DNA of 48,327 nt from Oscillatoriales cyanobacterium CG2_30_44_21 (GTDB taxonomy: Bacteria; Cyanobacteriota; Cyanobacteriia; Pseudanabaenales; Pseudanabaenaceae), in contig MNZA01000188.1 in the NCBI GenBank assembly GCA_001873375.1, positions 3,088 to 51,414 on the forward strand, in the 5' to 3' direction. Every line of letters begins with the position of its first letter. The stretch's first letter is position 1. Below, one piece after another: positions 6,074 through 43,873 of the stretch. The position numbers were made by a program, and so were the translations under genes. The notes under the pieces were generated by a model. The model was not told where the DNA came from, did not search any database, and was given only the letters and a program-made list of their open reading frames with translations.

Positions 6074-6150
6074 ATACAGCGCTTTTCGCTCAAACCCGAA
6101 CCGAGAATAATTTTTTCGCAGCGCTTCCAAAATTATTCTTGTGGTTTGTC
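6074..6150 (+). repeat. Degenerate copy of the dispersed boxed palindrome element
   Basis: A left-box sequence, ACAGCGCTTTTCGCT followed by CAAACCC (6076-6097), precedes weak inverted arms (AGAATAATTTT near 6104 and AAAATTATTCT at 6129-6139). The arm sequence resembles that of the copy at 21185-21233. Confidence 0.55.
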
Positions 6151-6400: not shown

Positions 6401-6484
6401 TAATTGTTTTCTAATTCAGAAATGGCTACGCCATTTCTGAATTAGAAAACAATTAATGGCGGCGCATTGCGCCGCCATTAATTG
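6401..6484. repeat. Two chained perfect palindromes
   Basis: The first has 26-bp perfect arms (6401-6426 and 6430-6455) around TAC, with core AAATGGC-TAC-GCCATTT. The second has 16-bp perfect arms (6450-6465 and 6469-6484) around ATT, with core GGCGGCGC-ATT-GCGCCGCC. The last six bases of the first right arm (CAATTA) are also the first six of the second left arm. A short GGGGCATTGCCCC hairpin follows at about 6494-6506. The gap 6031-6645 otherwise holds AT-rich sequence with no gene. Confidence 0.9.
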
Positions 6485-6556: not shown

Positions 6557-6634
6557 TCTCAAACAAAGAAATGGCTACGTCATTTCTTTGTTTGAGATTA
6601 GAGATGCGGTGCTTCGCGCCGCATCTCTAATCTC
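6557..6634. repeat. Two chained palindromes downstream of pgk
   Basis: Arms 6557-6573 and 6581-6597 (17 bp perfect, then a G-T and a C-G pair round TAC) are a variant of the AAATGGC-TAC-GCCATTT core. They share GAGA with the next palindrome, arms 6594-6609 and 6619-6634 (16 bp), extended inward to a TTC loop with core GTGC-TTC-GCGC. The second sits 11 bases from the pgk stop and may act in termination. Confidence 0.8.
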
Positions 6635-7963: not shown

Positions 7964-8082
7964 TGCAGCGCGAATCGGCGCTTCGCGCTAACTTAAAACC
8001 CAGAGAAAATTTTGAAAGCGGCGCGAAGCGCCGCTTTCAAAATTTTCTCTGTTGTACACATCAAAGTCTCAATAGGCTGTAA
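7964..8082 (+). repeat. Complete boxed palindrome element (copy 1)
   Basis: Left box (GCAGCG ... GCTTCGCGCTAACTTAAAACC, 7965-8000, with an internal insertion), then perfect 24-bp arms 8001-8024 and 8028-8051 around GAA (inner core GGCGC-GAA-GCGCC), then right box 8054-8082 (CATCAAAGTCTC then AATAGGCTGTAA). This is the clearest full copy: box, palindrome, box. The outer arm AGAGAAAATTTTG is shared with the copy at 10391-10441, but the inner arms differ. Confidence 0.8.
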
Positions 8083-10363: not shown

Positions 10364-10441
10364 TACAGCGTTTTGTGCTTATTTAAATCCCAGAGAAAAT
10401 TTTGTGGATCACGGCAGAGCCGTGATCCACAAAATTTTCTC
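10364..10441 (+). repeat. Boxed palindrome element (copy 2, right box truncated)
   Basis: Left box TACAGCGTTTTGTGCTTATT then TAAATCCCAGAG (10364-10395), followed by perfect 23-bp arms 10393-10415 and 10419-10441 around AGA (inner core ATCACGGC-AGA-GCCGTGAT). Beyond it CCGTATTACTTACAGC looks like a shortened right box. Outer arm sequence is shared with the copy at 7964-8082. Confidence 0.75.
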
Positions 10442-10523: not shown

Positions 10524-12179
10524 ATGATTATGTCCATCCATCTCCTACCCATTGAAGTTGTTCACTTAATCGCCGCAGGCGAAGTGATTGACTCATTGTC
10601 CGCAGTGGTTCGAGAATTGGCGGAAAATGCGATCGATGCTGGGGCAACCAGAATTGTGATTTCGATCTGGATGGATACGCTTTCGGTGCAGATGAGTGAT
10701 AACGGCTACGGTATGAACTGTAACGACCTATTGCAAGCCGCGACACCCCACAGCACTAGCAAAATCAATAATGTTGGAGATTTGCAGCAAATTCGCAGTC
10801 TGGGCTTTCGTGGCGAAGCCCTTTACAGCCTCGCTCAGCTTGCTGACTTGCAGATTTGCAGTCGCCCGATCGCCCAACCTGTCGGCTATCAAGTTCAATA
10901 TGATCACCAAGGAAACTTGCTCAATGATCCTAAAGTAATCGCGATCGCCTCTGGCACAGTGGTCACTGTGCAAAATCTTTTTTCAGGCTATCCCAATCGC
11001 TTGCAATCCTTACCCAGCAGTTCGCAACAGGTTCGCAAGCTTCAGTTACAAATTCAGCACATGGCGATCGCCAATCCCCAAGTTAACTGGCAAGTACATC
11101 TCAATGATCGCCAGTGGCTGACGATTTGGGCGGGAGAGAATGCTAGTGAAATTCTGCCGCAGATTATCAGTTCTGTGCAACCCTATGATTTGCTTTGCAA
11201 AAGTCTTGCACTTGACCCTGCAAATGGAACCAGAATCCAACTTACCCTTGGCAAACCTGATCGCCTCTCACGCCGCCGCCCTGACTGGATCAAGATTATT
11301 CTTAATGGAAGAGTGATCATATTTCCAGAACTAGAGCAAACAGTTTTGACAGCTTTAGAAAGAATATTGCCGCGCCATCGATTTCCCCTGTGCATTGTTG
11401 ATTTACATATATCTTGCGATCGCCTTGACTGGAATCGCCACCCTGCTAAACATGAAGTCTATATTCAAAATTTGGAAGCATTACAAACTCAACTAAAAGA
11501 ATGTATTACAGAGGCCCTAAAGTCTCCAGAACCAAATAACAGCAGCAATTACAACAGCGTTACCAATAAATTATTACAAACTGCGGAACGCAAAACCGCT
11601 TATTTAATTCCCACCAAGCAGGAAAATTTTAATCAACCGAATTTCTCGATTAAGGCGATCGCCCAAGTTCTCGATACTTACATTCTTGCGGAACATCAAG
11701 GCGGACTGTGGTTAATCGAACAGCACGTTGCCCATGAAAGGATTCTCTTTGAACAAATCGAATCGCAATGGCAAATTGTTCCAATTGCTCAGCCAATCTT
11801 ATTAAAACAAACTTCGCAAATATCGGATCGGGGAGTGGAACAGCTTCAAGTTTTGGGAATGGAAGTGGAAGCTTTTGGGGATAACCTCTGGGCAGTGCGA
11901 TCGCTCCCCGAAATTTTGATCGATCATCCTGAATGTGCCGCCGTCTTGCAAGAAATGAGTCAGCAAGAAGATCCATCCCTAGCCAGAGCGACAGCAGCCT
12001 GTCGCAGTGCAGTGCGTAACGGCACAAAGTTAGAAATGTCAATGATGCGAGATTTACTCAACCAATGGCAACAAACTCGCAATCCCCACACCTGCCCCCA
12101 CGGTCGTCCGATTTGTCTGGCGATCAGTGAGTCTGACCTAGCCAGATTTTTTCGCCGCAATTGGCTAATCACAAAGTAA
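10524..12179 (+). CDS. mutL: DNA mismatch repair protein MutL
   Basis: MutL couples mismatch recognition to strand cleavage. With the ATG at 10524 the protein has 551 residues; the open frame extends to 10404, but that stretch is made of palindromes, so the later start (or the ATG at 10530, MSIHLLP) is preferred. N-terminal GHKL ATPase motifs are intact: AENAIDAGAT with the catalytic Glu34, DNGYGM at 59-64 and GFRGEAL at 94-100. The C-terminal domain has EQHVAHERILFE near 400, matching the endonuclease metal motif except for Glu in place of the first Asp, plus ACRSAVRNG and CPHGRP near 524. It is therefore probably a nicking-type MutL. Its last ten coding bases form part of the following palindrome. 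Confidence 0.95.
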   Translation: MIMSIHLLPIEVVHLIAAGEVIDSLSAVVRELAENAIDAGATRIVISIWMDTLSVQMSDNGYGMNCNDLLQAATPHSTSKINNVGDLQQIRSLGFRGEALYSLAQLADLQICSRPIAQPVGYQVQYDHQGNLLNDPKVIAIASGTVVTVQNLFSGYPNRLQSLPSSSQQVRKLQLQIQHMAIANPQVNWQVHLNDRQWLTIWAGENASEILPQIISSVQPYDLLCKSLALDPANGTRIQLTLGKPDRLSRRRPDWIKIILNGRVIIFPELEQTVLTALERILPRHRFPLCIVDLHISCDRLDWNRHPAKHEVYIQNLEALQTQLKECITEALKSPEPNNSSNYNSVTNKLLQTAERKTAYLIPTKQENFNQPNFSIKAIAQVLDTYILAEHQGGLWLIEQHVAHERILFEQIESQWQIVPIAQPILLKQTSQISDRGVEQLQVLGMEVEAFGDNLWAVRSLPEILIDHPECAAVLQEMSQQEDPSLARATAACRSAVRNGTKLEMSMMRDLLNQWQQTRNPHTCPHGRPICLAISESDLARFFRRNWLITK

Positions 12180-12294
12180 AGTCTGAACCGTCCGCTACGC
12201 GGACGGTTCAGACTTTACTTTGTGAATGAAAGCGTTGCTTCGCAACGCTTTCATTCACAAAATAAGTGGCGGCGCGATGTGCCGCCACTTATTT
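12170..12294. repeat. Chain of three palindromes starting inside the mutL stop
   Basis: First: perfect 26-bp arms 12170-12195 and 12199-12224 around TAC; the left arm holds the last codons and stop of mutL, so the right arm is an inverted copy of coding DNA. Second: perfect 20-bp arms 12219-12238 and 12242-12261 around TTC (core GCGTTGC-TTC-GCAACGC). Third: 16-bp arms 12260-12275 and 12279-12294 around GAT, with one G-T pair. Each palindrome overlaps the next by two to six bases. Confidence 0.9.
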
Positions 12295-13890: not shown

Positions 13891-13937
13891 CCCAAAAGAG
13901 TAATGGCGGCGCAATGCGCCGCCATTACTCTTTTGGG
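13891..13937. repeat. Perfect 22-bp-arm palindrome between convergent genes
   Basis: Arms 13891-13912 and 13916-13937 around AAT, core GGCGGCGC-AAT-GCGCCGCC. It ends one base before the stop of the convergent gene and could serve both transcripts as a barrier. Confidence 0.85.
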
Positions 13938-14436: not shown

Positions 14437-14521
14437 ACAGCCTATTTAGGATTGGAGGGGTATAGAGAGATTTTTGAAAGCGCCACTTTCAAAAACCTCT
14501 CTAGGTTTTATAGCGATTCCG
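14437..14521 (-). repeat. Boxed palindrome element (copy 3, minus orientation)
   Basis: Read on the minus strand: left box at 14521-14504 (ATCGCTATAAAACCTAGAG), arms 14503-14486 and 14480-14463 (18 bp with one mismatch), then right box 14464-14437 (CTCCAATCC then TAAATAGGCTGTGT). The order of parts is the same as in the copy at 7964-8082. Confidence 0.65.
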
Positions 14522-18146: not shown

Positions 18147-18250
18147 TATATTTACGCGCTTAATTAAAACTGAGATAGATTTTCGGAAATAGCGCGGAGC
18201 GCCGCTTCCCAAAACCTATCCATACTACTCAAAGCTTTAACAGGCTCTAC
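18147..18250 (+). repeat. Boxed palindrome element (copy 4, degenerate)
   Basis: Left box TTTACGCGCTTAATTAAAAC (18151-18170), arms GATAGATTTTCGGAA and TTCCCAAAACCTATC (two mismatches) round GCGCGGAGCGCC, then right box CATACTACTCAAAG then CTTTAACAGGCT (18221-18246). The degenerate arms suggest an older copy. It is 40-50 bases upstream of the CyanoP gene and may overlap its leader. Confidence 0.65.
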
Positions 18251-20066: not shown

Positions 20067-20240
20067 TACAGCGTTTTGCGCTGACTTAAAACCCAGAGAA
20101 AGCCTAAATCCAAACAAAAAAGCTAAAGATTTTGCTTTGCAAAGTCCTTAGCTTTTTTGCTTGATATTACCTCTAAAGAGCATTAAAAGTGTTGCTTCGC
20201 AACACTTTTAATGCTCTTTAGTTTTGAGCGCAAAGCGCTA
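20067..20240. repeat. Left box, two palindromes, then an inverted left box
   Basis: A left box (TTACAGCGTTTTGCGCTGAC then TTAAAACCCAGAG, 20067-20097) is followed by arms 20115-20135 and 20139-20159 around TTT (two non-Watson-Crick positions) and by perfect 23-bp arms 20173-20195 and 20199-20221 around TTC (core AGTGTTGC-TTC-GCAACACT). An inverted left box lies at 20221-20240 (minus-strand TAGCGCTTTGCGCTC). The whole set fills the convergent gap before the DoxX gene. Confidence 0.8.
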
Positions 20241-27979: not shown

Positions 27980-28069
27980 TTGCAGCCCATTGAGGCTTTG
28001 AGTAGTACGGAAAAGTTCTGGAAAGCGTTGCTCTGCGCCGCTTTCCAGAACTTCTATGGGTTCTGTTTT
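27980..28069 (-). repeat. Boxed palindrome element (copy 5, minus orientation)
   Basis: On the minus strand the right box lies at 28010-27980 (CCGTACTACTCAAAG, CCTCAATGGGCTGCA). Arms AAGTTCTGGAAAGCG (28013-28027) and 28039-28053 enclose TTGCTCTGCGC, which would pair further with one mismatch around TCT. The left box is reduced to about AACAGAACCCATAG. Confidence 0.7.
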
Positions 28070-28105
28070 CAATTCACAAAAGTGTAGCTACACTTTTGTG
28101 AATTG
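28070..28105. repeat. Perfect loop-free 36-base palindrome
   Basis: CAATTCACAAAAGTGTAG (28070-28087) is followed directly by its exact reverse complement (28088-28105). It ends three bases from the stop of the minus-strand DUF255 gene. The right half recurs at 6518-6535. Confidence 0.9.
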
Positions 28106-30179: not shown

Positions 30180-30311
30180 TACAGCGCTTTGCGCTTAAAC
30201 CTAAACGTGGCAAGTTTTTGAAAGTGTTGCTTTGTAATACTTGACCGAAAAAAGCCTAAAAGCGCTGCTTTTAGGCTTTTTCGGTTCGCGTTAAAGCGCA
30301 AAGCGCTTTAA
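30180..30311. repeat. Palindrome flanked by inverted left boxes
   Basis: A forward left box (ACAGCGCTTTGCGCT then TAAACCTAAACG, 30181-30207) and an inverted one (minus-strand TTAAAGCGCTTTGCGCTTTAA, 30311-30291; each half under 20 bases as GCGCTTT/AAAGCGC) flank stem 30244-30263 with 30267-30285 (one bulged A, loop GCT). The inverted box covers the stop codon of the ABC transporter gene. Confidence 0.75.
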
Positions 30312-40830: not shown

Positions 40831-40864
40831 GATTACAGCCTATTTAGGCTTTGAGGGTTACAGC
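40831..40864 (-). repeat. Isolated right-box copy
   Basis: On the minus strand this reads GCTGTAACCCTCAAAGCC then TAAATAGGCTGTAATC, the best match to the right box of the boxed element. A palindrome follows at 40908, but no left box is clear, so the copy is partial or rearranged. Confidence 0.65.
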
Positions 40865-43800: not shown

Positions 43801-43873
43801 ACAGCGCTTTGCGCTTACTTAAAACCCTAGAAGTTGTTCCGCCCGCTACGCGGGCGGAACAACTTCTAGGGTT
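43801..43873 (+). repeat. Boxed palindrome element (copy with perfect left box)
   Basis: Left box ACAGCGCTTTGCGCT then TACTTAAAACCC (43801-43827), the best copy in the window, runs straight into perfect 24-bp arms 43823-43846 and 43850-43873 around TAC (core CGCCCGC-TAC-GCGGGCG). The right box is not recognisable. Confidence 0.85.

Follow-up and report, generated by a model that had tools for sequence, protein, structure and literature searches.

A non-autonomous IS630/Tc1-mariner MITE of Pseudanabaena with a palindromic centre probably kept by template switching, and spacer inversion at hairpins of the genome

Copies and hairpins in the window

The window, that is, the whole stretch of 48,327 nucleotides that was analysed, lies on contig C124 of a Pseudanabaena genome (G000; 3.5 Mb, 272 contigs). 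At 7964..8081 on the forward strand it carries a worn copy of a miniature inverted-repeat transposable element (MITE), which runs from a left TG (from TA) to a right TA and measures 118 bp against 105 bp for the canonical form. The left box of this copy, CAGCGC..TTCGCGCTAACTTAAAACCC (7966..8000, +), contains an expansion of a small foldback by about 10 bp. It is followed by a perfect palindrome at 8001..8051, with a stem of 24 and the spacer GAA, and by the right box TTGTACACATCAAAGTCTCAATAGGCTGTA (8052..8081, +), an IS630-type end. Three further copies are found in the window: that at 14437..14521 (-) has a good right box and a shortened palindrome but nearly no left box, that at 18147..18250 (+) is missing the first, outermost bases of the left box, and that at 27980..28069 (-) combines a good right box with a degraded left box. 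The first-pass annotation, whose box positions in the window were recovered as claimed, had called these four copies complete or near-complete; the sites are real, but all are worn, and the intact form was derived from copies at other places in this genome.

Among the sites that had been listed as left boxes only, two proved to be related elements with a left-type box at each end, namely 20067..20240 (+), which also holds two internal hairpins, and 30181..30311 (+); a left-type box of a related element lies at 6074..6100 (+). The left box at 10364..10391 (+) is followed by a perfect palindrome (10393-10441), and the stretch 43801..43873 (+) consists of a left box and a different perfect palindrome (43823-43873, stem 24). 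A solo right box is present at 40831..40864 (-).

Hairpins in the window are not confined to the MITE. With stems of at least 14 bp, 22 perfect hairpins were counted, versus none in 20 shuffles, and an Rfam scan of the window found a tRNA alone. Two non-MITE perfect hairpins could be compared with the relative ULC187bin1 (G012): at 12169..12225 two pairs had changed on both sides and the spacer was inverted (TAC/GTA), and at 13891..13937 the arms were identical and the spacer was exactly inverted (AAT/ATT). The hairpins at 1647-1697, 6401-6455 and 6557-6597 have the centre GAAATGGCTACGCCATTTC (or a near variant) in common and differ in their outer arms; they belong to a recurrent hairpin family of the genus. 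The hairpin CAATTCACAAAAGTGTAGCTACACTTTTGTGAATTG at 28070-28105 comes from another repeated family, seen at several loci of this genome and of G012, and one copy of that family in this genome is split by a 50-bp MITE.

Element family and mobility class

A genome-wide search with at most 3 mismatches gave 197 left boxes and 95 right boxes, and reversed controls gave 0 for each; both boxes thus stand far above chance, which bears out the recurrence that the first-pass annotation had seen in the window. The genome thus holds this IS630-type element about a hundred times or more, in dispersed positions. The left box was found in 25 of 26 Pseudanabaena genomes; in a named collection, the left-box pattern retrieved, among the matches listed, only Pseudanabaena records and one genome labelled Phormidium tenue. 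Sequence work on this genome covered about 0.7 Mb of fetched stretches, and 92 complete or near-complete copies were collected around its box matches, together with 71 from relatives.

The commonest form is 105 bp long and consists of a 28-bp left box starting TA-CAGC, a 49-bp palindrome (23+3+23) and a 28-bp right box ending GCTG-TA, that is, TACAGCGCTTTGCGCTTAMTTAAAACCC, then the palindrome, then GTACTACTCAAAGCCTCAATAGGCTGTA. Other lengths are 107, 95, 61 and 50 bp. The 95-bp forms have lost 10 bp from the palindrome centre, and in the 61- and 50-bp forms the palindrome is missing between short direct repeats (AAAAC or CCC), a product that slippage would give. A small foldback lies in each element end (AGCGCTTTGCGCT and AGCCTAAATAGGCT). 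The proposal that the box ends are short inverted repeats held for TACAGC/GCTGTA; beyond this short terminal repeat the left and right boxes are unlike. The centres of the 92 copies never fell inside ORFs of at least 150 aa, though such ORFs cover 73% of the sequence. At one locus of a relative (L308, G007), a 105-bp MITE splits one member of a set of repeated genes, which may code for a transposase; its relatives are intact. Most copies measure 50-111 bp, and the element is non-coding, multicopy and short, as a MITE is.

TA was present at both ends of 125 of the 163 complete copies. In this genome (L247), one MITE lies inserted in the right end of an IS630 remnant, reading CCTCAA-TA-MITE-TA-GACTG. 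In ULC187bin1 (L200), a 105-bp MITE stands at ...CATCATTTA|AGTCAAC, and the orthologous site in G006 and G007 (L389 and L363) has one TA and no element, reading ...GGTAACATCAGT-TA-AGTCAACAG.... The nested insertion and the empty site in two relatives together show insertion at TA with duplication of the TA, which supplies the target duplication and empty site by which the first reading could be checked and sharpens its MITE-like element to the IS630/Tc1-mariner class. The 18147 locus was considered as a further empty site in G012 and discarded, since a short remnant is common to both genomes and the site is not clean. Over the stretches that were compared, G006 and G007 showed no difference in MITE presence or absence.

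IS630 elements of about 1 kb occur in relatives (L250, L251, L253). Their ends, TACAGCCTATTGAGG-like ... GTACTACTCTTTCCCTCAATAGGCTGTA (the latter from L253), are close to the MITE right box, and the left box has TACAGC alone in common with them. The transposase of L250, from G010, scored 178.8 bits against a cut-off of 100 for NF033545 (IS630 equivalog) and contains the Pfam domains DDE_3 and HTH_Tnp_IS630. The autonomous IS630 partner is represented by remnants in this genome and by complete copies in relatives. In the fetched loci, an IS with left-type ends flanking an ORF was not found, only ordinary host genes; because of this, we infer the action of the transposase on the left-type end, and an IS630 transposase would be the partner that recognises TACAGC...GCTGTA. 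A second IS630-type (DDE_3) group of this genome (C73, C76, C121, C128, C217, C233) had no TACAGC-type end in the copies read. Judged by these sequence features, the element is a non-autonomous IS630/Tc1-mariner MITE, and its family is new and of an ordinary kind.

Another IS630-type (DDE_3) group of this genome (L241-L246) has its copies at contig ends, which suggests several near-identical copies. In addition, a palindromic element of about 90 bp with the ends AGGACTTACGCA...TGCGTAAGTCCT is present in G007 (L364) and absent from G006 (L388); AAGCAT is apparently duplicated, and it appears to be a second, recently active MITE family.

Paired arms and spacer inversion

The pairing of the arms was assessed in an alignment of 78 distinct copies with 500 shuffles. 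Pairing was found in 97.9% of arm cells, in agreement with the first-pass annotation, which had described interiors that vary among copies and pair inside each, and 21 of 23 pairs varied on both sides. Two-sided cells numbered 258, against 49.5 in shuffled data, and 0 of 500 shuffles reached as high a value. Such pairing together with two-sided variation indicates that the arms are kept matched. The arms diverged from the consensus by 16%, versus 7-9% for the boxes, and only 61 of 1909 cells were mismatched where about 555 would be expected if the arms changed independently; on the element strand the mismatches were G-T 14, A-C 34 and other 13. The spacers occurred in inverse pairs (TCC 20/GGA 12, TTC 18/GAA 14, AGA 4/TCT 3). 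Between copies with no more than 4 other differences, the spacer was the same in 29 cases, the exact inverse in 30 and another sequence in 19.

Similar hairpins are abundant outside the MITE. The 693 kb (about 0.69 Mb) of this genome contained 431 perfect hairpins with stems of at least 12, of which 82% have a 3-nt spacer and most have different arms. Stem lengths drop off past about 30 bp, and three extreme lengths seem to be artefacts of the contigs. The hairpins lie outside ORFs in 404 of 428 cases, are concentrated shortly after stop codons (median distance to the facing stop codon, 22 bp) and are densest between convergent genes; T tracts accompany 23 of 428. Between this genome and G012, which are about 88% identical, eight clearly orthologous hairpins with 146 pairs had 21 changes that affected both sides; the spacer was exactly inverted in two cases, in one of them with all 44 arm bases unaltered. 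The behaviour of the palindrome is therefore general to palindromes of the genus and not specific to the MITE. Loss of SbcCD as the cause of palindrome survival was rejected, since both SbcD, in two copies, and relatives of SbcC were found. Two homologues of SbcD, the subunit of a palindrome-cutting nuclease, occur in Pseudanabaena genomes (G000:C94:28998-29774 and C265:18719-19480).

Spacer inversion was then quantified between two relatives, G006 (a metagenome assembly) and G007 (a single contig), which are 99.56% identical over the compared loci. Out of 97 perfect hairpins of G006, 48 were identical in G007 and 49 differed; in most of the latter the arms were intact and the spacer was exactly inverted. 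The inverted fraction depended on stem length. It was 0.04% for stems of 4 bp, 0.1% for 5, 0.5% for 6, 2% for 7 and 0/21 for 8-9 bp; it reached 10% at 10-11, 13% at 12-13 and 29% at 14-15 bp, and it was 67% at 16-17, 54% at 18-19, 46% at 20-23 and 44% at 24 bp or more. With stems of at least 16 bp, about half of the perfect hairpins were thus inverted as read from the assemblies, from which alone fixed inversions are indistinguishable from mixed populations or assembly choices. The plateau near 50% indicates that orientation is effectively random. Among orthologous MITEs of the same two genomes, 8 of 22 were inverted, and in one an 11-bp core had flipped as a block, mismatches included. At one locus, G007, G022 and G025 (read from the reverse strand) had the same orientation and G006 and G014 the opposite one; this sharing runs against relationship, which indicates that flips recur. 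With a two-state model and 42% inverted as a low estimate, the flip rate was at least about one flip per hairpin on the path, versus 0.0044 substitutions per site, a difference of about 200-fold. A few arm mismatches remain uncorrected between G006 and G007, suggesting that arm copying is slower than spacer flipping.

Proposed mechanism, alternatives and known systems

Given these observations, we regard it as highly likely that the element is an IS630/Tc1-mariner MITE with TA duplication whose palindromic centre is kept by template switching. The MITE would have spread through the IS630 transposase acting on its TACAGC...GCTGTA ends, with TA duplicated at each insertion. At the near-perfect palindrome of about 49 bp, a replicating strand would switch template, either to the partner strand or to its own folded arm, and then return. 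A single round of switching would leave the spacer inverted, and a switch spanning a mismatch would rewrite one arm from the other. Over repeated rounds the arms would stay perfectly paired while both drift jointly and quickly, and such joint drift accounts for copies that are unlike each other and hardly mismatched internally. Hundreds of further hairpins of this genome with 3-nt loops would be subject to the same process. The changes themselves are exact inversions and two-sided replacements. As their maker, we infer template switching during replication rather than another hairpin-processing route; exact spacer inversion, two-sided arm changes and dependence on stem length are all as template switching predicts.

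Selection on an RNA hairpin, serving as a terminator or as an mRNA 3'-end stabiliser, would also keep the arms paired, with the two-sided changes as ordinary compensatory mutations, and both the high arm pairing and the crowding of hairpins outside ORFs, close to stop codons and between convergent genes fit it. However, spacers exactly inverted between unaltered arms are not predicted by such selection, wobble pairs are few (the G-T mismatches number less than half of the A-C ones) and T tracts are scarce, so that we consider it unlikely as the explanation. Selection may favour the presence of a hairpin whose perfection is maintained by template switching, and since the hairpins cluster just past stop codons, selection on RNA may help to retain them. 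The main remaining worry is that the inversions arose artificially, from the handling of palindromes in assembly or library preparation, and that the real genomes differ far less. Saturation near 50% is what a blind choice of orientation would yield, G006 is a metagenome assembly, and palindromes are filled with N in some relatives; in the UBA1465 assembly (L082 and L084), MITE palindromes appear as runs of N, a sign of hard assembly. Against this, the inverted fraction starts to climb at stems of 10-15 bp, below the usual assembly words, and the hairpins are under 60 bp, shorter than reads. Complete genomes differ as well (AAA in G022 versus TTT in G014, with identical arms), similar copies within the single contig of G007 differ by inversion, and an artefact cannot produce two-sided arm changes. 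We therefore judge this account quite improbable.

Strain-specific interiors, such as AAATAAACTTGAGGAAGC in ULC187bin1 and AGAGAAATTTTGGGAAGC in O153, could reflect separate MITE subfamilies, each amplified from one perfect palindrome without arm copying. Amplification of this kind does contribute to copy number, but as the sole explanation it is very improbable, being contradicted by two-sided changes at orthologous single-locus hairpins outside the MITE, by arms that diverge faster than the boxes and yet remain paired, and by inversions between orthologues. The small foldbacks at both ends would suit a single-strand element of the IS200/IS605 type (PATE/REP-like) recognised through end foldbacks; the inverted TACAGC termini and a right end in common with an IS630 transposon speak against it, and the TA duplication refutes it, leaving it scarcely credible.

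Template switching, the best explanation, is a known mechanism whose scale here is new, and a description of a comparable scale was not found in the literature searched. By extrapolation from 431 in 693 kb, perfect palindromes with a 3-nt loop may number of the order of two thousand in each Pseudanabaena genome, with spacer flipping rapid enough to randomise orientation at 0.4% divergence. The process would be recombinase-free and genome-wide and, counted per hairpin, would outpace per-site substitution about 200-fold, and IS630 MITEs would have taken it in too; we hold this wider account to be evenly balanced between true and false. If it is true, populations are mosaics of hairpin orientation, and the inversion process may both create and preserve hairpins. 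Template switching would account for puzzling repeats with common ends and differing but self-matching interiors, and the hairpins offer a natural system in which palindrome template switching can be measured simultaneously at hundreds of loci, stem length serving as the dose. A further caution is that two-sided changes in a bacterial hairpin do not alone prove that the RNA has a function, and that differences between spacers are not to be scored as independent substitutions.

TA insertion with duplication is known in the IS630/Tc1-mariner family from ISY100 of Synechocystis (PMC2170065). The present element resembles such cyanobacterial elements and prokaryotic MITEs (PMC10969869) in TA duplication, inverted ends, a DDE_3 partner and intergenic non-autonomous copies of about 100 bp; it differs in that a close resemblance to the IS end is limited to the right box, with the left box departing beyond TACAGC, and in that the interior is a co-varying palindrome. 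In yeast, template switching at inverted repeats homogenises arms and exactly inverts spacers, only where the arms exceed 9 bp and mostly at already-perfect repeats (PMC8604942), but that report concerns ten coding events across strains, whereas here about half of the long-stem hairpins differ between genomes 0.4% apart. For RNA hairpins, one template-switching event has been proposed to explain multi-base compensatory changes and perfect stems (PMC8794818); that was inferred from RNA gene histories, and the present case concerns intergenic hairpins and a mobile element of a bacterium. In chloroplast DNA, small inversions flanked by hairpins, for example at trnH-psbA, are recurrent within species and palindrome-associated (PMC2903610), in one plastid spacer region as against hundreds of loci here, mostly with 3-nt spacers. 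Finally, when perfect inverted repeats were surveyed across 118,019 genomes, bacteria showed excess spacer variation, with 4-bp spacers most frequent (PMC13155455), whereas in the present genome 3-nt spacers predominate and the variation takes the form of exact inversion.
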